This document shows, in pieces, positions 18,324 to 38,669 of a DNA stretch of 64,000 nt. Origin of the DNA: SAR202 cluster bacterium (GTDB lineage Bacteria; Chloroflexota; Dehalococcoidia; Lucifugimonadales; Lucifugimonadaceae); assembly GCA_009392215.1 (NCBI GenBank), contig VFGZ01000033.1, positions 1-64,000 of the forward strand, read 5' to 3'. Positions within the stretch are counted from its first letter, which is position 1. The number at the start of each line of letters is the position of its first letter. Below the pieces are notes generated by a model. The model was given only the letters and a program-made list of their open reading frames with translations, was not told the DNA's origin and did no database searches. A program made the translations under genes and the position numbers.

Positions 18324-19550
18324 ATGCGTATTGCTTTTATCACCGTTCATGGATGTCCCTTGCGCCAGGCTGGCAGTAAGGATTCCGGCGGGATGAACAT
18401 CTACATACTTGAAATGGTTAAGCGACTTGGTGCTCGAGGAGTTAAGGTCGATGTGTTTACGCGACACCATGATCTGCTTGATCCTGAGATAGTAACGCTG
18501 ACGCCAGGTGTAAGGTTGGTGCATTTACCCGCAGGACCACCATCTCTCGACAAAAACGGTGTTTATGAACTACTTCCAATATTTGCTTCGCAAATGCGAA
18601 GATTCTGCATCGTTAATAGACTTAACTATGATTTGATAAGTACACATTATTGGTTGTCTGGACTTGTTGGTATGCGCCTGGCATCTGAATGGGCTGTTCC
18701 GCATGTTACAAGTTTTCATACAATGGCGGAGATGAAGCGACGAGGTCGTCCCGAAGAACTCGAAATAAGTCAGAGGGATGCATCTGAGTCTGAGATAGCC
18801 CGATCTGCAGCGTCTGTAATCGTTTGGACTGAGGATGAAAAAGAAGCTGTAGTTGATTATTGTGACGTTGATTCTGATAATGTGAGCGTTATCGCACCTG
18901 GTGTAGATTTGAGCCGTTTTCGCCCAATGTCACAACGCTACTCTCGAGATTATCTTGGATATGGCCCGGAGAAGAATATATTGTTTGTTGGGCGGCTTGA
19001 ACCTCTTAAAGGGGTTGATAATTTGTTTAGGGCTGTTGCGAGCCTTGAAAATTTGAAATCTATAACTTTGAGTGTTGTCGGAGGGGATGGTAATTCACAG
19101 GAAAAAAGGAGGCTTCAAGCACTCGCTAAGAAAATGCGATTAAATCAAACAGTTCATTTTCTCGGTCCGATTCCTCAAGAAGAATTACCAATATATTACA
19201 ACGCCGCTGACGTCTGCGTACTACCTTCTTATTATGAGAGTTTTGGCTTTGCTGCGTTGGAGGCTTCCGCTTGCGGGAAACCGGTAATAGCTTCTGAAGT
19301 TGGAGGACTTCGGACGATTGTCAATCATGGAAGGACCGGATTTCTTGTGCCACCGAAGCGAATGGATCTCATCGCTGAGCGTTTGTGTGAATTACTGGAT
19401 GATGATTTACTTCGCGCCCAGATGGGAGCAGCCGGTAGAATTCGAGCTGAATCACTAGGCTGGGATAGCTCTGTTGATTCGTTGTTGAGACGCTTTAAAG
19501 AACTGATTCCGCAGACTGCTGAATCTGTTATATCTGTAGTCGGTGGTTAA
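18324..19550 (+). CDS. Family 4 glycosyltransferase resembling MshA
   Basis: GT-B retaining glycosyltransferase of 408 residues. The N-terminal block ITVHGCPLRQAGSKDSGGMN and the segments STHYWLSGLVG and IAPGVDLSRFRP resemble actinobacterial MshA, which joins N-acetylglucosamine to inositol phosphate. The donor-site motif ESFGFAALEASACGKPVIA is the EX7E element. Sucrose-phosphate synthase-like and other GT4 enzymes also share these motifs, so the acceptor is uncertain. ATG 18324 follows the acyltransferase by 12 bp. Its stop overlaps that of the convergent tandem GNAT gene within one TTAA. Confidence 0.85.
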   Translation: MRIAFITVHGCPLRQAGSKDSGGMNIYILEMVKRLGARGVKVDVFTRHHDLLDPEIVTLTPGVRLVHLPAGPPSLDKNGVYELLPIFASQMRRFCIVNRLNYDLISTHYWLSGLVGMRLASEWAVPHVTSFHTMAEMKRRGRPEELEISQRDASESEIARSAASVIVWTEDEKEAVVDYCDVDSDNVSVIAPGVDLSRFRPMSQRYSRDYLGYGPEKNILFVGRLEPLKGVDNLFRAVASLENLKSITLSVVGGDGNSQEKRRLQALAKKMRLNQTVHFLGPIPQEELPIYYNAADVCVLPSYYESFGFAALEASACGKPVIASEVGGLRTIVNHGRTGFLVPPKRMDLIAERLCELLDDDLLRAQMGAAGRIRAESLGWDSSVDSLLRRFKELIPQTAESVISVVGG

Positions 19551-20473
19551 ACAGATTTTCCCCACCAGTTGACTTGGTTCTTAGTTTCGAAGCCTAATGA
19601 TGAATAGACTTTCATGGCCTGTGTGTTTAGTGAATCAACCTCAAGTTTCACTTGATCGACCTTTAGTCCAATAAGATGATTGAATCCAGCTTCAGCGATC
19701 GCACGGCCTAGACCTTGGTTCCTTGCTTTTGGTGACACTCCGGTCATATTAATCAGTCCGATTTTCAAATGAGTCTTATGAAATAACGAAGTCCAACAAT
19801 ATGCGACTAGTTGACGATGGGCATTGTGAATCATCAAAACATTGTCGATTCCATGACCTCGGGATAGTAACCTAGCTTTGATTTCGCTTTCTGTGTTTGG
19901 CGAATACCCGAAGTGATCATTGAACGATTGATTTTGTAAATGGGTCAGCTCAGGTATCTCATGATGTCCTACCATCGTGCGCAACAGGAAACCGTGCGGA
20001 ATTGTTGATTTAAATTGCGAAAAAGGGGGAGTACTTTCCAGTCTCAAGTACTTTCGCACATGTTTCCAGTCCCGGTCCTTTAGGATCGTTTCGACATGGG
20101 ATTCGTGATTGAGAGTTGCTATATGAGCAATAGGCGTTTCTTGCCTCGCTCGATTGGTTCCCCATTCGAGTAGCTGAGCCAGAATGGCAGAATTAGTAGA
20201 GGTGCTGGTGAATCCGACTATGGATCGGCCGATATTTTTTTCTGGCTCTACGATGGCGTATCCGACAACCTCATTTTTTAGATGTGCAAGAGCTAGATTT
20301 TTATGGGGTTGTACACGCGGAAATTCCAACACAGATGTGAGATCTGAGGTTGTATCTGGCCACTCTCTGTGGCCATGCGATCCCGCATCCTGTAATAGCT
20401 TGTGAAGAGAATCGATGTCGGTATCTGTGAAATTACGTAGTTGTATATTAGATTGATTTAGTGATGGATTCAT
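19547..20473 (-). CDS. Tandem GNAT-domain acetyltransferase (MshD-like architecture)
   Basis: A 308-residue protein with two GNAT folds in tandem. The C-terminal domain (about 160-308) has a clear acetyl-CoA site, TGVSPKARNQGLGRAIAEAG, and the typical ending LNTQAMKVYSSLGFE; the N-terminal domain (about 10-140) is degenerate. Mycothiol synthase MshD has the same length and two-domain plan with one active half. Many unrelated tandem GNAT proteins exist, so this is a resemblance only. It is convergent with the MshA-like gene, sharing stop-codon bases. Confidence 0.78.
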   Translation of the reverse strand: MNPSLNQSNIQLRNFTDTDIDSLHKLLQDAGSHGHREWPDTTSDLTSVLEFPRVQPHKNLALAHLKNEVVGYAIVEPEKNIGRSIVGFTSTSTNSAILAQLLEWGTNRARQETPIAHIATLNHESHVETILKDRDWKHVRKYLRLESTPPFSQFKSTIPHGFLLRTMVGHHEIPELTHLQNQSFNDHFGYSPNTESEIKARLLSRGHGIDNVLMIHNAHRQLVAYCWTSLFHKTHLKIGLINMTGVSPKARNQGLGRAIAEAGFNHLIGLKVDQVKLEVDSLNTQAMKVYSSLGFETKNQVNWWGKSV

Positions 20474-20588: not shown

Positions 20589-20618
20589 TTGCTTCTCCGG
20601 TCTATTGGCACTTATAAT
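20589..20618 (+). promoter_or_regulatory. Predicted sigma-70 promoter of the ilv-leu operon
   Basis: TTGCTT at 20589-20594 and a perfect TATAAT at 20613-20618 are 18 bases apart. Transcription would begin near 20626, immediately before the T-box leader. The 115 bases between this promoter and the divergent GNAT start at 20473 show no gene. Confidence 0.6.
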
Positions 20619-20626
20619 TGAGAAGC

Positions 20627-20879
20627 GTGAAACGCTATGAACGGGAGTAGTAACGGATCAAGTGTTCTAAGAGAGAGCCGGTGGTTGGTGTGAACCGGTG
20701 TGCATTGGTTTGAGAACTCGCCCTGGAGCGGTCGATCTGAATTTTGTTAACTAGGGTCGAACGGCTTGCCCCGTAAAGGTTTGAGTGGCTCGGTGCTTTC
20801 AGAGTGACGGCACCTGGCAATCGAAGGTGGTACCGCGGGATGTAAGTCTCGTCCTTTGTGAGGGACGGGATTTTTTTTT
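20627..20879 (+). promoter_or_regulatory. T-box riboswitch, leucine-type, upstream of ilvB
   Basis: A full T-box leader is visible: the AGTAGTA S-turn strand near 20645-20652, the AGAGAG...GGTG distal stem I elements near 20671-20700, a specifier region GAGAACTCGCCC at 20712-20723, and the conserved T-box AAGGTGGTACCGCGGG at 20824-20839. The specifier reads CTC (20717-20719, leucine) when the nucleotide after the codon is required to be a purine. Uncharged tRNA-Leu would stabilise the antiterminator and allow transcription of the ilv-leu genes. The downstream terminator is annotated separately. Confidence 0.9.
20847..20879 (+). terminator. T-box-controlled intrinsic terminator
   Basis: TCTCGTCC (20847-20854) pairs with GGACGGGA (20863-20870) around a short loop, followed by nine Ts (20871-20879). 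This is the regulated terminator of the T-box leader and overlaps the antiterminator's 3' side. Confidence 0.88.
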
Positions 20880-20983: not shown

Positions 20984-22666
20984 ATGTCAAAACGCCTCAC
21001 CGGTAGTCAAATTGTATGTGAAGCTCTTCTTAAAGAAGGTACGAGGGTGGTGTTTGGTATTCCGGGCGGTGCGATTCTTCCACTATATGGAGTTCTGTCG
21101 CAGTATCCAGACTTACGTCATATCCTGTCACGTCACGAACAGGGTGCAGCGCATGCCGCGGATGGTTACGCAAGATCAACGGGCACGGTTGGCGTGGCTT
21201 TTGCCACGTCTGGACCAGGTGCAACCAATTTGGTGACTGGCCTAGCTACTGCGATGATGGATTCAGTCCCCGTTGTCGCTATTACTGGTCAAGTGGGTCG
21301 TGCTGCGATCGGCACAGACGCGTTTCAAGAAACTGACATCACTGGTTCAACGCTCCCGGTTACTAAACATAACTATCTTGTAATGCGAGCCGACGATTTG
21401 GGTAAGACAATCCATGAGGCCTTTCATATCGCTAGAACGGGTCGTCCTGGACCAGTACTAATAGATATTCCAAAAGATGTATTCACTGAAACTGGCGAAT
21501 ACGACCCTGATGCTCCAATTGATTTGCCTGGCTATACAGTCCCCGGTAAGGCTGAAGAGACTCAGATAACAGCTGCTGCGGAATTGATTAACGCGGCTCA
21601 GCGACCGGTGATCCTCGCAGGTCATGGGGTTGTCTTATCACGGTCGTTTGAGGAGCTTAAGGAATTTGCCGAAAAAGCACAGATTCCAGTGGTAACAACT
21701 TTACTAGGAATTTCGTCTTTTCCAGAGGATCATGTGCTTAGTACAGGTTTTCCAGGTATGCATGGAATGGCATATGCTTCTCTTGCGATTGATCAGGCAG
21801 ATTTAATTATCAATTTTGGAAGTCGTTTTGATGATCGTATTGTTGGCGATTCTCGTCGATTTTCAACTGGATCGAAAAAAATCCATGTGGATATTGATCC
21901 TGCGGAGATAAATAAAAGCATAAGGGTTGATGCTCCGGTTGTAGGTAACATTAAGGATGTGTTTCGACAGCTCATTCCGCAGGTTAAATCGACGACACAT
22001 GTCGAGTGGTTACAACATATTGAGCATCTTAAATCCGAGCACCCTTCATTACGAATTCCTGAGAGCGATCGATTGATGGGGCAGCATGTTGTGAAAGCAC
22101 TCTCGGATGTCACGCAAGGTGAGGCAATCATTACTACTGGAGTTGGTCAGCACCAGATGTGGGCAGCACAGCATTATCAATTTAAGAACGCTAATTCTTG
22201 GTTGTCATCGGGTGGTGCCGGAACGATGGGTTACGAAGTCCCTTCAGCTATAGGAGCGCAGGTTGGTAACCCAGATAGCCTAGTTTGGTCGATCTGTGGC
22301 GATGGTGGATTTCAGATGACGATGATGGAGCTTGCGACAGCTGCTGAAAATGACCTTCCAGTAAAGTACGCGATTTTGAACAATAATCATTTGGGGATGA
22401 TTACTCAGTGGCAGGGCTTCTTTTATAACCAGGATTATCAGGCTGAAACCTATTCGGGTAATCCAGACTTTGTGAAACTTGCAGAAGCCTATGGGATAAA
22501 AGGGATACGGGTATCGAAACAGGATGAACTTGAGTCGGCTATAAGTGAAGCAAACAACCATAATGGTCCTGTGGTAGTGGATTTTGTAATTGAAAAAGTT
22601 GATGACGTTTATCCAATGATTCCAGCAGGACAGAGTGTCCAAGAATTAATTGAGGAGCCAAACTAA
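20984..22666 (+). CDS. ilvB: Acetolactate synthase, large catalytic subunit
   Basis: Thiamine diphosphate enzyme joining two pyruvates, or pyruvate and 2-ketobutyrate, in valine/leucine and isoleucine synthesis (560 residues). Visible features are the catalytic Glu region [17 protein letters not shown] near residue 45, the FAD/central domain (about 190-350) and the cofactor motif [15 protein letters not shown]...NNNHLGMI near 440-470. ATG 20984 follows AGGAAG. Its stop overlaps the ilvN start (TAATG), coupling the two subunits. Confidence 0.97.
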
Positions 22667-23259
22667 TGGCGTCTAGCGATAACGCATCGTTTCAGCGGAC
22701 AATTTCTGCACTGGTACAGGATCGGCCTGGTGTGCTGGCTAGGATTGCTGGTTTATTTCGTAGACGTGGTTTTAATATCGCCAGTCTCGCTGTTGGTCGA
22801 TCAGAGCAACGAGGGTTGTCTAGAATGACTTTCGTCGTTGAAGGACCATATGAGGTTGTTCGCCATGTATCAGCGCAACTTGATCGCTTAATTGACGTTG
22901 TAGAAGTTCATGATATTACTGAAAAAAATATTGTCTGGCGTGAACTTGCATTGATTAAAGTTACTGCAGATGCATTAGCGAGACGAGAGATACTTGAATT
23001 GGTGAATATTTTCCGCGTGAATGTTATTGATATTGGGGCTGAAAGTTTAACAGTGGAAATTTCGGGCGGTCGTCAAAAAATCGACTCGTTCATCGAATTG
23101 GTTCGTAAATTCGGTATCGAGGAAGTTATACGTACTGGTCGTGTTGCGACCCTTCGCGGGACACTAATTGCGGGTGAGGAAGATGGATTGTTTCAATCAG
23201 ATACTAATCAATCAGATTACACTTTACCGATTCCAAGTGATGATACAGGGAGCGTTTGA
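22666..23259 (+). CDS. ilvN: Acetolactate synthase, regulatory subunit
   Basis: A 197-residue ACT-domain regulatory subunit of the IlvH/IlvN type. VQDRPGVLARIAGLFRRRGF near residue 17 and NIASLAVGRSEQ form the valine-binding ACT domain; the second domain is at about 80-165. The last 30 residues are a polar tail, making it longer than the usual 160-170. It shares 1 bp with ilvB. Confidence 0.96.
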   Translation: MASSDNASFQRTISALVQDRPGVLARIAGLFRRRGFNIASLAVGRSEQRGLSRMTFVVEGPYEVVRHVSAQLDRLIDVVEVHDITEKNIVWRELALIKVTADALARREILELVNIFRVNVIDIGAESLTVEISGGRQKIDSFIELVRKFGIEEVIRTGRVATLRGTLIAGEEDGLFQSDTNQSDYTLPIPSDDTGSV

Positions 23260-23336: not shown

Positions 23337-24335
23337 ATGGCTACTCTTTCTTATGACAAAGATATCGATGATTCCATACTGCGGGATAAAACGATTGCAG
23401 TACTTGGGTATGGATCCCAAGGGCACGCACATGCACTTAACTTGAAAGAAAGTGGATTTAATGTTGTTATCGGACTTTACGAAGGTAGTCGAAGCAAGCA
23501 GACGGCTGAAGAAGCTGGCTTCACAGTACTTTCTAATGCCGATGCTGCGAAGGCCGCTGATCTAATTTCTTTTTGTTTGCCTGACACGATTCAGTCAAAG
23601 GTTTACAGAGAAGATGTTGAGCCGAATTTGGGGGCAGGTAAAACCTTGCTATTCGCACATGGGTTTACTATTTTCTATGAGCAGATTGCTCCACCGCCAG
23701 AGATTGATGTTGTGATGATTGCCCCTAAGGCACCAGGTCATAGGGTACGCGCTGTATACGAGAGGGGCCTTGGTGTTCCATGCCTTGTAGCGGTTCATCA
23801 GGATGTATCGGGTGCGGCTCATGAAGTAGCACTGGCTTACGGGAAAGGTATTGGAGGTGGTCGTGCAGGCATATTAGAGACTACTTTTAAGGAAGAGACG
23901 GAGACCGATTTATTCGGAGAACAGGCTGTTTTATGCGGTGGGGTCACCGAACTAGTCAAGACTGGCTTTGAAGTATTAGTAGAGGCCGGTTATGAGCCGG
24001 AATCAGCCTACTTCGAGGTTCTTCATGAATTGAAATTGATCGTCGATCTCATGTATCAGGGTGGTCTCGGCTACATGCGGTACTCGGTGAGTGAAACTGC
24101 TGAATATGGTGATTACTCACGTGGTCCCGTTGTGATCGATTCCAATGTGAAAAAAAACATGGAAAAAGTTTTGCAACAAATTCAATCAGGAGAATTCGCT
24201 CGGGAGTGGATTGCTGAAAACGACGAAGGTCAACATAAGTTCAAGCAAATGCGCACTGATAACGAAACACATGGTATTGAGAAGGTTGGCAAAGAGCTTC
24301 GAGATATGATGCCTTGGCTAGAGTCGACTACATAG
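23337..24335 (+). CDS. ilvC: Ketol-acid reductoisomerase
   Basis: Class I IlvC of 332 residues: isomerisation and NADPH reduction of acetolactate or acetohydroxybutyrate. The nucleotide site [17 protein letters not shown] is near residue 25, and the knotted C-terminal domain holds the Mg ligands ([14 protein letters not shown] and the segment [15 protein letters not shown]). A phosphate-binding Ser-Arg pair (GSRSK) suggests NADPH preference. ATG 23337 is separated from ilvN by 77 bp without a visible terminator. Confidence 0.97.
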
Positions 24336-24437
24336 TATTTTTTTGAAAGCAGAAAATACATAAGGCTGTAAAGTAGTGGTTTTGCGTATTAGTTTGGTAA
24401 AACTGTTCAACTAAAAGCGAGCGCTGGAAGGATTCAA

Positions 24438-26006
24438 ATGGCGCAGCAGAGTCATACTGAAGACAAAGTAATTATTTTTGACACCACCCTCCGTGACGGA
24501 GAACAATCCGCCGGGGCTGGTCTGACAGTTGAAGAAAAACTTCGTATTGCTCACCAACTCAATAAGTTGGGCGTTGATGTTATTGAGGCTGGATTTGCGG
24601 GTAGTTCGCCAGGTGACTTTGAAGCCGTACGCAGAATCGCTAATGAAGTAAAAGGGCCAGTCATTACTTCTCTTGCGCGTGCTGTTGAATCGGATATCGA
24701 TGCTGCGGGAAAGGCCCTTGAAGGTGTCGAGAACGCTCGTATTCATACATTTCTTTCATCTTCGGACGTTCACTTGATGCACCAGATGCGTAAGGATCGT
24801 GAATCCATAATGGATATGGCCGTCCGGGCCGTTGAGCGAGCGAAAAGTTATGTCGATGATGTTGAATTCTCACCAATGGATGCCTCCCGCACTGAACCTG
24901 AATACCTTTATACGATGCTTGAAGCAGTGATACGGGCTGGCGCAACAACGGTTAACATTCCAGATACAGTTGGTTATTCAACGCCTGAGGAGTTCGGGGG
25001 GTTAATTCGCGGGATCAAAGAAAACGTCCCTAATATTGAGGGGGTTGTAATCAGTGTCCATTGCCACAATGACCTTGGAATGGCTTCGGCTAACTCGCTC
25101 GCAGCAATAGAAAATGGGGCTCGTCAGGTTGAAGGTTGCGTAAATGGACTCGGTGAGCGAGCAGGAAATGCGGCGCTCGAAGAAGTGATAATGGCTTTAG
25201 AAACAAGACCAGACCATTATGGTGTTACCACTGGCATCAATTGCGAGGAGATAGGTAACTCAAGTCGTATGGTCAGTTCTATATTTGGGTTTCCTGTCCA
25301 GGCCAATAAGGCAGTAGTTGGCCAGAACGCGTTTCGGCATTCCTCTGGTATCCATCAAGATGGTTTTCTGAAAGAACGTACAACTTTCGAAATTATGGAA
25401 CCAGACACTGTCGGTTGGCGTGGCCAAGCGCTCGTACTTGGCAAGCTTTCCGGTAGGGCGGGTCTTCGTTCACGATTACATGAGCTTGGTTATGAATTAT
25501 CCGATGAAGAGTTGTCCACTGTATTCGTGTTATTTAAGGATCTTGCTGACACTAAGCGTGAGGTTACAGATATGGACCTCGAGGCACTAATGTCCGAGCA
25601 GCACCGTATGGTTGATACCGACAGAACTTACAAAGTTATTTCGGTGCATGTTGTGTGTGGGAATGGCACAGTTCCACAGGCTAAAGTCACTCTTGCTTGT
25701 CCGGATGGTCAATCAAGAACGGTCGAGTGTAAGGGGACTGGTCCTGTCGATGCGGTGTGTAAGGCAATCGATCAGGTTGTTGATTTAAATATCGATTTAA
25801 CGGAGTTCGCTGTGTCGGCGGTTACAGAAGGTATTGATTCTCTTGGCGAAGTTACTATTAGAGTGGCGAAGGATGGCTCGGTATACTCAGGTCGTGGATC
25901 AGATTCCGATATTGTTGTTGCATCAGCCAAGGCATATGTGAATGCTATTAACAGATTGATAACAATTGGAGTACAAGATCGAACCGCAACCACAGGTGCA
26001 GTTTAG
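24438..26006 (+). CDS. leuA: 2-Isopropylmalate synthase
   Basis: First committed enzyme of leucine synthesis (522 residues). FDTTLRDGEQSAGAGLTVEE near residue 14 is the DRE-TIM metallolyase opening, VHCHNDLGMASANS holds the metal-binding His pair, and residues after about 390 form the regulatory LeuA dimer domain for leucine feedback. ATG 24438 follows GGAAGG. A separate DRE-TIM homologue at 36.5 kb is assigned as citramalate synthase, so the two roles are divided. Confidence 0.96.
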   Translation: MAQQSHTEDKVIIFDTTLRDGEQSAGAGLTVEEKLRIAHQLNKLGVDVIEAGFAGSSPGDFEAVRRIANEVKGPVITSLARAVESDIDAAGKALEGVENARIHTFLSSSDVHLMHQMRKDRESIMDMAVRAVERAKSYVDDVEFSPMDASRTEPEYLYTMLEAVIRAGATTVNIPDTVGYSTPEEFGGLIRGIKENVPNIEGVVISVHCHNDLGMASANSLAAIENGARQVEGCVNGLGERAGNAALEEVIMALETRPDHYGVTTGINCEEIGNSSRMVSSIFGFPVQANKAVVGQNAFRHSSGIHQDGFLKERTTFEIMEPDTVGWRGQALVLGKLSGRAGLRSRLHELGYELSDEELSTVFVLFKDLADTKREVTDMDLEALMSEQHRMVDTDRTYKVISVHVVCGNGTVPQAKVTLACPDGQSRTVECKGTGPVDAVCKAIDQVVDLNIDLTEFAVSAVTEGIDSLGEVTIRVAKDGSVYSGRGSDSDIVVASAKAYVNAINRLITIGVQDRTATTGAV

Positions 26007-26129
26007 CTAGATAGTGACAACTAAAATAACTGTCAGTTGCGCTGACTGAAGAGCTTTATTTTTGGGTTATTATTTTTGATTGATTAAGGTTTTTGGGCCG
26101 AAAAGGTATTTATTGGGGGTTATGTGCAC

Positions 26130-27539
26130 ATGGGTAAGACCATGTTCGAAAAGATTTGGGATCAACATATTGTTGCAGAGCCAGAGGATCAGCCTGCTCT
26201 TATTTATATCGATCTCCATCTGGTGCACGAAGTTACTTCGCCGCAGGCATTTGAAGCTTTGCGCCTGACTAATCGTAAGGTGCGTCGCCCAGATCTTACT
26301 ATATCGACTGTTGATCATAATCTTCCAACTGATGACACCAGATCGGAAGTGATCAAGGATCCTATCGCTCGTATACAAGTTGATACTCTTCGCAAGAATT
26401 GCGAACAAACAGGAATAACGCTCTACGATGTTGATTCCACAGCCCAAGGGATTGTTCACGTTATCGGTCCCGAGCAGGGATACACTCAACCTGGAATGAC
26501 CATTGTCTGTGGTGATTCACACACTTCGACTCATGGTGCTTTTGGTTCGTTGGCTTTTGGAATTGGGACTTCTGAGGTAGAGCATGTTCTTGCCACCCAG
26601 ACACTTCGGCAACGTAAGCCTCACACTATGGAAGTCCGATTTAACGGCAAACTGAAGCAGGGTGTTACTGCTAAGGATATGATCCTTGCGGCAATCGGTA
26701 AGATGGGTACGGCTGGTGGTACAGGTTATGTGATCGAATACACCGGTGACGCAATCCGTCATCTTGATATGGCTGGTCGTATGACAGTTTGCAATATGAC
26801 GATCGAAGCTGGAGCTAGGGCAGGTCTTATCGCACCAGATGATACAACCTTCGAGTGGATGCGTGGACGCAAGTTTGTACCTAAGGGTGAAAAATTCGAC
26901 CATGCAGTTGACCAATGGCGGGCGCTAGTCAGTGATGAAGATGCGGTGTTTGACACACTAATTGAAATTGATTGCGATGATCTGGAGCCATTTGTCACCT
27001 GGGGTACTAACCCGGGGCAAGTGACCCGTATAACTGACAATGTGCCCTCTCCCGAGGACTTCGATGACATAGCGGACAGAACTTCTGCAGAGAACGCACT
27101 TGAATATATGGGTTTGAAGGGAGGTATGGCAATTGAGGACATTGAGATCGATCGAGTGTTTATAGGATCTTGTACAAATGCTCGTATTGAAGACCTTCGA
27201 TCGGCTGCTCAGATTGTCAGAGGTCGTACTGTTGCATCTAGCGTTCGTGCACAAATTATGCCTGGCTCCACACTTACCAAACTTTTGGCTGAAAAAGAAG
27301 GTCTCGATCAGATTTTTATGGAAGCCGGATTCGAGTGGCGAGAGTCGGGTTGCTCGATGTGTCTAGGGATGAATCCAGATATTTTGGTTCCGGGAGAACG
27401 TTGTGCCTCCACTTCGAATCGAAACTTCGAAGGTCGACAAGGCAAAGGTGGGCGTACACATCTTGTGAGCCCTGAAATGGCTGCCGCTGCGGCAATTTCA
27501 GGGCATTTCGTAGATGTCAGGGAATGGGATACTGAGTGA
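26130..27539 (+). CDS. leuC: 3-Isopropylmalate dehydratase, large subunit
   Basis: Aconitase-family large subunit of about 469 residues. The [4Fe-4S] cysteines lie in [12 protein letters not shown] and [12 protein letters not shown], and [20 protein letters not shown] is the substrate signature. Start ATG 26130 lies 10 bases after GGGGG (26115-26119); a GTG at 26124 is possible. It is separated from its small subunit leuD by an unrelated membrane-protein gene, which is unusual. Confidence 0.95.
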
Positions 27540-27582: not shown

Positions 27583-28695
27583 GTGCAATCAGGGAATTAT
27601 GATCCGAGACCTCCAGAAGATCGTGATCTAGCTGGAACAATTGATCCGAAACGGACTTCTCGTGTTACTCGTCGGTCTAAGGCAACATCCGAGACCAATC
27701 CTGCTGCTGATGGCATGCTGCGCCGACTTAGTGGTCGTTCCGACCTGGATCGCGCTAAGGCTATGAGATATGAACCCTATTCCTATGAATCTAACTCAAC
27801 CCAGTTGAGGTGGGTCGTAATATCACTTGCTGCTTGGTCTGTAGTTGCACTATGGCTGGCATGGGTAGATTTCTCTACGCTGGGCGTCTTGTCAGATCTT
27901 CAAGATCAAGGATTTACTAGCGTGCCACCGGCGACTCTTACTCCGCAATCTATGATTGAGTTTGCTGATAGGGAAGGCATGAGTTGCATAGACGCTGCTG
28001 ACGTTTTTCTGGCGACTAATGAATGTAATAGACTTTTTGATGCCCAAAATATCTATGAGGGTGTGAAAGGTCAAAGTTCATTGGCTTTTGTGACTCTCAT
28101 GGGTCTTTTACTCGTAAATATGTTTGCATTTGGTTCGTTTACTCACCGCGCCAGCAGGAATCTTCTTACTTTGAAAAGCAGTGGGCAAGGATTTACTCCA
28201 GAAAAAGCTGTGATGTGGTTTTTTATTCCATTCATGAACCTGTATAAGCCTTGGCAGGTGTTTCGCGAGCTATTCAAAGGAAGTGATCCACTAGTAACAA
28301 CCTCGGATAAACTTAAATGGAAGACTGCAGGTAAAGTATCGAATTTAGTTCATTTTTGGGCTGGCATATTCGTTTTAGTATTCATTTATAATCCGATCAC
28401 TATTGGAAGAGTATGGCATTCTGTTCGGCTAACGTTTACCGATAGCGTGATAGCCCATCAGAGACTAGTTATTGCTGATTTACTACTGGCACTTCTCGGT
28501 ATTGCTGCTTTGCTTGTGGTGATTGAGTTACATAAGCGACAAGAGTTGCGTCATGTTAAGGTTGGTAACATTACGGTGACGCCGCCGCCGCCGGTAGATC
28601 CTCTCCACGAGGCTCTGAAGGAGGGCATAAGACGTAAGGAACTGGACAATCGTAACTTTCGCCTTGGCGGTCATGATCGGAAAGACGAAAGGTAG
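27583..28695 (+). CDS. DUF4328-type membrane protein inserted between leuC and leuD
   Basis: A 370-residue membrane protein resembling DUF4328 proteins. A basic, polar N-terminus of about 80 residues precedes hydrophobic segments near 82-100, 165-185, 245-265 and 295-315; the central WFFIPFMNLYKPWQVFREL is the family hallmark. Function unknown. It starts at GTG 27583, 43 bp after leuC, and ends 5 bp before leuD, so it is embedded in the leucine operon and shares its T-box control. A role in branched-chain amino acid transport or sensing is possible but unsupported by sequence. Confidence 0.82.
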   Translation: MQSGNYDPRPPEDRDLAGTIDPKRTSRVTRRSKATSETNPAADGMLRRLSGRSDLDRAKAMRYEPYSYESNSTQLRWVVISLAAWSVVALWLAWVDFSTLGVLSDLQDQGFTSVPPATLTPQSMIEFADREGMSCIDAADVFLATNECNRLFDAQNIYEGVKGQSSLAFVTLMGLLLVNMFAFGSFTHRASRNLLTLKSSGQGFTPEKAVMWFFIPFMNLYKPWQVFRELFKGSDPLVTTSDKLKWKTAGKVSNLVHFWAGIFVLVFIYNPITIGRVWHSVRLTFTDSVIAHQRLVIADLLLALLGIAALLVVIELHKRQELRHVKVGNITVTPPPPVDPLHEALKEGIRRKELDNRNFRLGGHDRKDER

Positions 28696-28700
28696 CTATT

Positions 28701-29297
28701 TTGGAAAAATTCAGGAAACTTACTAGTATCGTTGCTCCACTTGATAGAGCGAATGTTGATACTGATCAAATTATACCGAAGCAGTTTCTCAAGAGGATTG
28801 AAAGAACAGGATTCGGAGAGTTTGCCTTCTTTGATTGGAGATATCTTGAAGATGGTGTGCTTAATCCTGATTTTATTTTGAATGAAGATCGTTACCGGGG
28901 TGCCAATATCCTTGCAGGTGGCCGTAATTTCGGTTCGGGTTCCTCCCGTGAGCATGCTCCCTGGGCATTGATGGAAATGGGATACAAAGCGATCATCTCG
29001 ACAAGTTTTGCTGATATTTTCCGTAACAACTGTATGCAAAATGGGCTTTTGCCAGTGATTTTAGAAGAAGCCGAAGTTGACACAATTATGGCGCGGGCAC
29101 TCCGCGGCACTGGGTATAAGGTGACAGTTGACTTGGATTCACAGACGGTTAAAGATGATCTTGGACTTAATGCTAATTTTGATATAGATCCGTTTCGAAA
29201 GAATTCACTAATGGCGGGTCTTGATGACGTGGGTGTCACTATGGAATTCAGCAAAGAAATTGACATGTATGAGGGAAGGCAAAAGAAACGCTGGTAG
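28701..29297 (+). CDS. leuD: 3-Isopropylmalate dehydratase, small subunit
   Basis: A 198-residue swivelling-domain subunit. DTDQIIPKQFLKRIERTGFG near residue 20 and FGSGSSREHAPWAL mid-protein are diagnostic. Start TTG 28701 follows GAAAGG, 5 bp after the DUF4328 gene. LeuCD probably also processes citramalate for isoleucine synthesis (inference from cimA). Confidence 0.96.
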   Translation: MEKFRKLTSIVAPLDRANVDTDQIIPKQFLKRIERTGFGEFAFFDWRYLEDGVLNPDFILNEDRYRGANILAGGRNFGSGSSREHAPWALMEMGYKAIISTSFADIFRNNCMQNGLLPVILEEAEVDTIMARALRGTGYKVTVDLDSQTVKDDLGLNANFDIDPFRKNSLMAGLDDVGVTMEFSKEIDMYEGRQKKRW

Positions 29298-29416: not shown

Positions 29417-30526
29417 ATGGATTTACGGATTGCAGTTCTTGGTGGGGATGGTATCGGTCCCGAAGTAACGGCAGAAGCAGTAAAGGTTCTTGATGCTATA
29501 GGGCGTCGTTATGGTCACGAATTTACTTATATAACTGGACCGGTTGGTGGTACGGCTATAGACATGACGGGTTCAGCGCTCCCCGCTGACACCATGAATA
29601 TTGTTTTAGGATCTGATGCGGTTCTTTTTGGAGCTGTCGGTGGGCCAAAATGGGATGATCCTGTAGCTAAGGTACGACCCGAAGATGGCATATTGGCTCT
29701 GAGAAAAGGTCTTGGACTGTATGCAAATTTGAGGCCTTGCAAAGTTTATGAACAGTTGATCGATACTTCTCCGATTCGCCCAGAAAGACTTGTTGATGTT
29801 GATTTCATCATAGTTCGTGAATTAACTGGTGGTTTGTATTTTGGTAAACCGAAACGTCGGTGGGAAAATTCTAGGGGGCGACGGGCTGTAGACACGCTAG
29901 CGTATTCCGAAAAAGAGATCGAGAGAGTTGTCCGCATTGGATTTGAGCTGGCCCGTGATCGTCGAAAACGACTTCACTCACTGGATAAAATGAATGTGAT
30001 GGAATCATCCCGGCTTTGGCGTGAGGTAGCGACTGAAGTCGGGATTGAGTATCCCGATGTGGAATTAATACATATGTTGGCAGATAACGCCGCTATGCAG
30101 ATAATAACCCAGCCATCTATATTTGATGTGATAGTCGCTGAGAATATGTTTGGAGATATCCTTTCGGATGAAGCCGCGGTGATTGGTGGCTCTTTGGGAA
30201 TGTTACCCTCAGCTTCGATTTCATCTTTGCCACCGAAAAATGGCCGTCGTCGCAGGGGCGGTAAACCAGCTTTATACGAACCGATCCACGGTTCTGCACC
30301 TGATATTGCGGGCAAATCCCTTGCTAATCCAATGGCTTCCATTCTTAGCTCGGCTATGCTTCTAAGATTTTCAGCTGGTCTCAATACGGAGGCTGACGCA
30401 ATAGAAAAAGCAGTTGATTCGGTGCTATCTGAGGGGTACAGGACGCTCGATATTTCATCTGGGACCGATCGACCTCTTACGACTACTCAAGTAGGCGATA
30501 TGATTGCAGGCTTAGTATCAAGTTAA
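29417..30526 (+). CDS. leuB: 3-Isopropylmalate dehydrogenase
   Basis: NAD-dependent oxidative decarboxylase of 369 residues, last leucine-specific gene of the operon. LGGDGIGPEV at the N-terminus, RELTGGLYFGKP in the middle and the segment NMFGDILSDEAAVIGGSLGM are typical. A short Arg/Lys-rich insert (KNGRRRRGGKP, near 275) interrupts the usual run into LYEPIHGSAPDIAGK. A stem-loop follows the stop. Confidence 0.96.
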   Translation: MDLRIAVLGGDGIGPEVTAEAVKVLDAIGRRYGHEFTYITGPVGGTAIDMTGSALPADTMNIVLGSDAVLFGAVGGPKWDDPVAKVRPEDGILALRKGLGLYANLRPCKVYEQLIDTSPIRPERLVDVDFIIVRELTGGLYFGKPKRRWENSRGRRAVDTLAYSEKEIERVVRIGFELARDRRKRLHSLDKMNVMESSRLWREVATEVGIEYPDVELIHMLADNAAMQIITQPSIFDVIVAENMFGDILSDEAAVIGGSLGMLPSASISSLPPKNGRRRRGGKPALYEPIHGSAPDIAGKSLANPMASILSSAMLLRFSAGLNTEADAIEKAVDSVLSEGYRTLDISSGTDRPLTTTQVGDMIAGLVSS

Positions 30527-38187: not shown

Positions 38188-38216
38188 AAAAAAACCCATC
38201 CCAATAAGGGACGGGT
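38188..38216 (-). terminator. T-box-controlled intrinsic terminator of cimA
   Basis: On the minus strand ACCCGTCCC pairs with GGGATGGGT across a 5-base loop, followed by a run of Ts (38194-38188). It is the regulated terminator of the cimA T-box leader. Confidence 0.88.
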
Positions 38217-38460
38217 CTAAGTGACTCGCGGTACCACCCTCGTTGCCAATCGATAAAGTCTCTAGTCGACTAAAACTGGCCGCTTATTAGTGCATATTGA
38301 ATATGCCTTAGTGTCTGATAACGGAACACTAATCCGATCACGCCTACTGGTGAGTTATCACTTTCGGGTAATGGCTTAGGAGTGATATTCAGTCAGGACT
38401 TATGTGCCCTATTTCACCGATGCGGGCTCTCTGCGACTTTAGTGTCTGACTTACTTGTTT
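38188..38460 (-). promoter_or_regulatory. T-box riboswitch, isoleucine-type, upstream of cimA
   Basis: On the minus strand the leader shows an AGTA S-turn strand followed by AGTCAGAC, which pairs with GTCCTGACT, the AGAGAG and GGTGAAA distal stem I elements, and the specifier region GAATATCACTCC. The T-box sequence AACGAGGGTGGTACCGCG lies at 38244-38227. The codon followed by a purine is ATC (38386-38384), isoleucine, which fits the function of cimA. The register is one base different from that of the leucine-type leader, so the specifier call is less certain than the T-box call. Confidence 0.88.
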
Positions 38461-38669
38461 CCTTTTAGTTGAGGGTAAACCCAACAACACCTCTAGCATC
38501 AATCCTATCACTGGCGACACCTAAACATCGAATCTATGCCAGTGATTGAAGTCTGCTATTTGGATCCTTCCGAAGTTAGCAAGATGCTCAATTCATGCCT
38601 AGAATGTGCGTATTATCTGTTTACCTTGTCTCGTCGATTTTTCGATTGTAGATTGCCTGGGAGTGTTGA

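Follow-up and report, generated by a model that had tools for sequence, protein, structure and literature searches.

For the ilv-leu operon of Bacillus subtilis, Marta et al. reportedly described in 1996 a T-box leader with a CUC triplet and leucine-dependent control. The B. subtilis operon is also under the control of proteins such as CodY. The leader analyzed here likewise has a predicted CUC specifier in front of ilv and leu genes, whereas the order leuA-leuC-DUF4328-leuD-leuB and the phylum are different. In the Chloroflexi, T-boxes were described for ileS, trpE and a trpB-like gene of Dehalococcoides, and the passage concerned names no leucine T-box (Wels et al. 2008, PMC2494555). These T-boxes belong to the same phylum and the same RNA family, and the relatives included here likewise have ileS and Trp T-boxes, but ilvB, leuS, valS and cimA leaders were found in addition. 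T-boxes of five Chloroflexi genomes are treated in PMC3766115. A literature search for SAR202 together with T-box yielded no paper; its coverage was incomplete, and absence from print is not claimed. Both T-boxes in Chloroflexi and leucine T-boxes with CUC in front of ilv-leu operons are already known, and the present leader is well formed and ordinary in kind. Comparative evidence indicates that SAR202-like Chloroflexota follow the same T-box logic that is known from the ilv-leu operons of Firmicutes.

The window, i.e., the whole analyzed stretch of 64,000 nucleotides of contig VFGZ01000033.1 from a SAR202 cluster bacterium, was searched with 4227 Rfam families. The T-box family RF00230 was the sole family that reached the gathering level, and it matched positions 20628-20859 of the plus strand with 121.5 bits (E 2.1e-26), compared to a gathering score of 93. 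The first-pass annotation had placed a T-box at 20627-20879, which agrees with this covariance-model match above the cut-off and with the nine Ts that end at 20879. The promoter, stem I elements, specifier, T-box and terminator that it had named were each found at the predicted place. The preferred reading, with a probability of roughly 0.94, is a transcriptional T-box with a long stem I that would be specific for tRNA-Leu(GAG) and would act by antitermination; control of the whole stretch from ilvB to leuB is proposed with less certainty. The role of the leader is most likely to turn on the genes for branched-chain amino acid biosynthesis in this uncultured bacterium. The predicted elements, all on the plus strand, are as follows:

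20589-20618, plus strand, promoter with TTGCTT, 18 nt and TATAAT (sequence; genus conservation)
20628-20859, plus strand, T-box leader, RF00230 (covariance model and pair conservation in 19 leaders)
20634-20729, plus strand, stem I with the specifier loop AGUA (20649-20652) / GAA (20714-20716) and the apical AGAGA (20672-20676)
20717-20719, plus strand, specifier codon CUC (Leu), followed by the purine G20720 (genus alignment, ilvB leaders)
20732-20773, plus strand, stem II and stem IIA/B helix (covariance model; compensatory changes in 5 of 7 pairs of stem II)
20783-20820, plus strand, stem III with the flanking purines GAGUG (20783-20787) and AA (20819-20820)
20824-20856, plus strand, antiterminator with the 7-nt bulge UGGUACC (20828-20834) and the wobble pair G20835-U20852 (folding, genus alignment, tRNA end)
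20844-20879, plus strand, intrinsic terminator, a 13-pair hairpin and nine T (folding; pairing in 19 leaders)

The -10 box TATAAT (20613-20618) is a perfect consensus, while the -35 box TTGCTT (20589-20594), separated from it by the 18-nt spacer, is weak. The weak -35 box is the cause why the leader promoter was not reported in a consensus promoter scan. All 19 loci of the genus share TTGCTT, the 18-nt spacer and a distance of 9 nt from the -10 box to the T-box, and the -10 box is TATAAT in 15 loci and TATACT in four. Further upstream, two genes (18324-19550, plus strand, and 19547-20473, minus strand) resemble a MshA-like glycosyltransferase and a MshD-like acetyltransferase of the mycothiol type, both with scores under the NCBIfam cut-offs.

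The T-box sequence AAGGTGGTACCGCGGG is located at 20824-20839. The UGGU of its bulge is complementary to the tRNA end ACCA, and tRNA-Leu(GAG) ends with ACCA. The antiterminator folds at -11.6 kcal/mol and the competing terminator at -16.5 kcal/mol, and the two cannot form together, because 20848-20856 belongs to both. According to the review PMC7583486, helix A2 has at its base a G-U wobble that is a steric sensor, and RRRxG and AA purines flank stem III. The pair G20835-U20852 at the base of helix A2 is G-U in all 19 genus leaders; the window leader has both purine motifs (GAGUG, AA), and GAG-G and AA beside stem III are invariant or nearly so among the 19. The terminator hairpin (20844-20873, with nine Ts at 20871-20879) was paired in 99.2% of the cells of these leaders. 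Its pairs show no double changes in the 19 leaders, a result that is matched by 477 of 500 shuffles; the terminator is therefore conserved, but not tested by covariation.

Following the steps of the T-box mechanism as laid out in the same review (PMC7583486), at leucine scarcity the GAG anticodon of uncharged tRNA-Leu would pair with the CUC specifier. Its 3' ACCA would pair with the UGGU of the bulge and thus hold the antiterminator, and RNA polymerase would continue into ilvB-ilvN-ilvC-leuA-leuC-DUF4328-leuD-leuB. If the tRNA is charged, its 3'-aminoacyl group would block the pairing with the bulge, the downstream strand would then fold into the terminator (13 pairs, nine U), so that transcription would end ahead of ilvB. 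For this leader, we infer tRNA binding, antitermination and the leucine response by analogy.

The genes behind the leader are:

20984-22666, plus strand, ilvB, acetolactate synthase large subunit (TIGR00118, 741.6 bits)
22666-23259, plus strand, ilvN, acetolactate synthase small subunit (TIGR00119, 186 bits)
23337-24335, plus strand, ilvC, ketol-acid reductoisomerase (TIGR00465, 436.5 bits)
24438-26006, plus strand, leuA, 2-isopropylmalate synthase (TIGR00973, 710.8 bits)
26124-27539, plus strand, leuC, isopropylmalate dehydratase large subunit (TIGR00170, 783.9 bits)
27583-28695, plus strand, DUF4328 protein, predicted membrane protein (PF14219, 51.3 bits, cut-off 27.2; hydrophobic stretches seen by eye)
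28701-29297, plus strand, leuD, isopropylmalate dehydratase small subunit (TIGR00171, 241.7 bits)
29417-30526, plus strand, leuB, 3-isopropylmalate dehydrogenase (TIGR00169, 477.2 bits)

The first-pass annotation had spoken of eight ilv-leu genes. Eight genes on the same strand were indeed found, and seven of them encode ilv/leu enzymes, but the remaining one encodes a DUF4328 protein (PF14219). The order ilvBNC-leuAC-(DUF4328)-leuDB was kept in the loci of the family that are long enough to display it. Genes similar to ilvD are located on other contigs; with 445.6 bits (C57) and 314.7 bits (C55) they do not reach the curated cut-off, which is 618.

Control of all eight genes, about 9.5 kb, by the one leader is plausible, because they are on the same strand, the gaps are short, the order is conserved, and sites resembling promoters or terminators are not in excess. 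Between 19500 and 33000 a consensus scan gave 20 promoter-like matches versus 22.6 in shuffles, and nine terminator-like matches were found versus 10.5. The silence of the scan inside the operon is weak evidence, because the scan also misses the real leader promoter.

Alternatively, the T-box might control the first genes only, and leuC-DUF4328-leuD-leuB might be uncoupled from it by an internal promoter, a terminator or mRNA processing. In B. subtilis, RNase J1 processes the ilv-leu transcript (PMC3997798), and covarying hairpins were found in two gaps of genus relatives (e.g., L108, L128 and L138). The first follows ilvC (24336-24437 in the window); of its 11 pairs, 10 have double changes, in 33 cells altogether (shuffles 12.0, slid versions no more than 14). 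The second follows leuA (26007-26123 in the window); of its 9 pairs, 7 have double changes, in 14 cells altogether (shuffles 5.2, slid versions no more than 5). It precedes a short T run and the block CGYTACTATTTCTG, which is exact in 7 of 15 cases and near in others. Neither cell count was reached by any of 500 shuffles, and both structures were derived with RNAalifold from the same alignments that were used for counting, so that the gain is partly by construction. In the genus, these hairpins could be sites of processing or of partial termination. At least 9 of the 11 pairs of the ilvC-gap hairpin are present in 15 of 17 relatives, but only six in the window, five in L092 and three in L098, and as judged from the sequence it is decayed in these three. 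The leuA-gap hairpin, with 8 or 9 of 9 pairs in 9 of 14 relatives, retains 7 of 9 alignable pairs in the window, where by the same measure it is weak, having two G-C pairs, yet still present. In the window, the folding of either gap is no better than that of shuffled sequences (z +0.42 for the ilvC gap, -0.42 for the leuA gap). While the retained pairs after leuA speak for an uncoupling, the loss of pairs after ilvC, the few G-C pairs of the hairpin after leuA, the lack of excess sites and the conserved gene order and spacing speak against it. An uncoupling of the later genes is unlikely, and control of all eight genes by the leader is the preferred reading.

The leucine type of the leader had been proposed with CUC as specifier based on the rule that a purine follows the codon, and the agreement between codon and gene in 83 T-boxes now points to the same triplet. 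Three of these T-boxes are from this genome and 80 were fetched from relatives, chosen among the matches listed mostly by score and partly by a place suggesting an ilvB leader, so that the sample is incomplete and not random. Skipped matches include G029:C82, which is cut by the contig end, G007:C35 and many lower-scoring ones. The reading admits only CTC, GTC, ATC and TGG as specifiers, and all 83 matched. The genes behind the leaders were named via likeness to the proteins of the window, by NCBIfam (nine, plus cimA and ileS of this genome), and by tblastn for the remainder. For 32 leaders without a good homologue in the window, likeness to NCBIfam-named proteins was used, and for valS behind L077 just 75 residues are visible before the contig end.

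The 44 ilvB leaders have CUC in 41 cases, AUC in two and GUC in one. CUC is also present in both leuS leaders and GUC in 20 valS leaders, while AUC precedes cimA (four) and ileS (three), and UGG precedes trpS (nine) and trpE (one). The odd ilvB leaders, L112 and L151 with AUC and L144 with GUC, are all from other families of the order and are specificity switches at the same gene. At the T-box base opposite tRNA position 73, 9 of 10 UGG leaders have C, while 72 of the 73 others have U. This split is expected if tRNA-Trp has G73 and the other cognate tRNAs have A73. The leu, val, ile and trp leaders of the lineage thus differ at the specifier, and the trp leaders also at the discriminator-facing base. 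The genome encodes a tRNA-Leu(GAG) with A73 and CCA, and four further tRNA-Leu were found (CAG, CAA, UAG, UAA), none of which pairs with CUC at all three positions. From the agreement with the genes, the discriminator-facing base and the presence of tRNA-Leu(GAG), the specifier of the window leader is therefore predicted with high confidence to be CUC.

A real T-box in which another triplet near CUC is read (e.g., AAC, ACU or GAA), and which would sense another tRNA, is very improbable. The Rfam alignment has a gap at the place of the specifier, and the Ile leaders of the lineage have one extra base before the AUC codon, or two in the ileS leader of this genome, which shows that the distance from AA alone does not set the register. 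In contrast, CUC, GUC and UGG stand directly after GAA in the Leu, Val and Trp leaders, the in-register triplets agree with the enzyme encoded behind them, including the two leuS leaders, CUC is invariant in the 19 genus leaders while its flanks vary, and the cognate tRNA is present. CUC is thus retained as the predicted specifier.

The structure of the leader was analyzed in an alignment of 19 genus leaders, i.e., 18 relatives and the window. With the pairing of Rfam itself 86.1% of the cells pair. Its upper stem I helix was rejected for the genus, as it pairs in just 16.7% of the cells. The substitute helix A1 (columns 34-40 with 75-81, 7 pairs), which was read by eye from the same alignment on which it was counted, is 94.0% paired, with compensatory changes in 6 of 7 pairs. 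The refined structure also drops the ill-kept Rfam pairs of columns 15-99, 26-88, 31-83, 56-68 and 150-159, and stem III was excluded from the Rfam and the refined counts alike. In the refined structure 98.2% of the cells are paired, and the rise from 86.1% is partly by construction, because the choices of helices were made on the same alignment. Double-sided changes were found in 12 pairs and 30 cells, compared to 5.2 pairs and 9.6 cells in shuffles, none of 500 reaching either value, and at most 5 pairs and 9 cells in slid versions. Folding, which the first-pass annotation had named as a check, supported the terminator hairpin (z -4.73, 0 of 200 shuffles as low), but not the whole leader, the energy of which is ordinary (z -0.59, 56 of 200 shuffles as low). 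The minimum-energy fold of the whole leader was set aside, as it does not return the T-box fold. Because of this ordinary energy, the evidence comes from the covariance model and from comparison rather than from free energy.

The S-turn of stem II (20732-20760) is ACUA in the window versus AGUA in the model, and this stretch is variable across the genus; the leucine T-boxes of the lineage may do without this latch. That the departure marks a decayed T-box without function is hardly credible, as the covariance score is well above the cut-off and the specifier, the T-box bulge, the A2 G-U pair and the promoter are invariant or nearly so in the 19 leaders.

The search for matches to the T-box family covered this genome and 59 relatives, and 59 of these 60 have at least one. 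This genome has three, in front of ilvB, cimA and ileS, while 15 of 18 genus relatives have at least five. The assembly comprises 1.81 Mb in 69 contigs and is 84.8% complete. A trpS gene was not found in it, and for valS, with the ileS gene of C27 set aside, the best match is a fragment beginning at the edge of a contig (C48:1-852). The two T-boxes fewer than in relatives may be a matter of the assembly. The other two T-boxes of the genome are:

38204-38475 of the window, minus strand, second T-box, 89.8 bits (below 93), AUC, in front of the citramalate synthase gene cimA (TIGR00977, 648.4 bits)
G000:C27:5054-5314, plus strand, ileS T-box, 74 bits (below the gathering score), AUC

Both resemble the ilvB leader in family, layout and UGGU bulge, but differ in the AUC (Ile) codon, the extra base or bases before it and scores below the gathering score. 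The cimA T-box fits isoleucine control.

The DUF4328 gene and the gap hairpins are less expected features than the T-box. With tblastn (at least 85 bits), 24 of the 26 loci of the family (f1) that show both leuC and leuD have a DUF4328 relative between these two genes; the two loci without it belong to one genus. Outside the family, no relative was found at this place in eight loci. The same arrangement is also present in the named genomes L152, L153 and L202; L202 and L083 are probably one record. The protein is fast-evolving, and its most distant counterpart is about 23% identical to that of the window. At E 0.001 the G024 counterpart is missed by the Pfam model, and the family name of the distant counterparts therefore rests on their likeness to the window protein. 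In the phylum, 21 of 251 genomes have a DUF4328 match, and leu genes lie within about 1.5 kb in only 2 of 24 loci examined, both of the family of the window. In the literature covered, a search with the name DUF4328 found no paper.

As a speculative and doubtful proposal, the DUF4328 protein might be under leucine T-box control and work in the handling of branched-chain amino acids, e.g., in export or sensing of leucine or of keto-acid precursors, and in most of the genus the hairpins after ilvC and leuA might further divide the operon message and set separate doses for ilvBNC, leuA and leuCDB. In one family of bacteria, DUF4328 is tied to the leucine operon, which offers a handle on the role of this protein family. 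The source is probably a SAR202-like Chloroflexota bacterium, as among the matches listed for named genomes, which may lack the very closest records, the nearest to IlvB were those of Chloroflexi bacterium SAT182 (79%), NP1277 (74%) and SAR202 cluster bacterium bin127 (73%).
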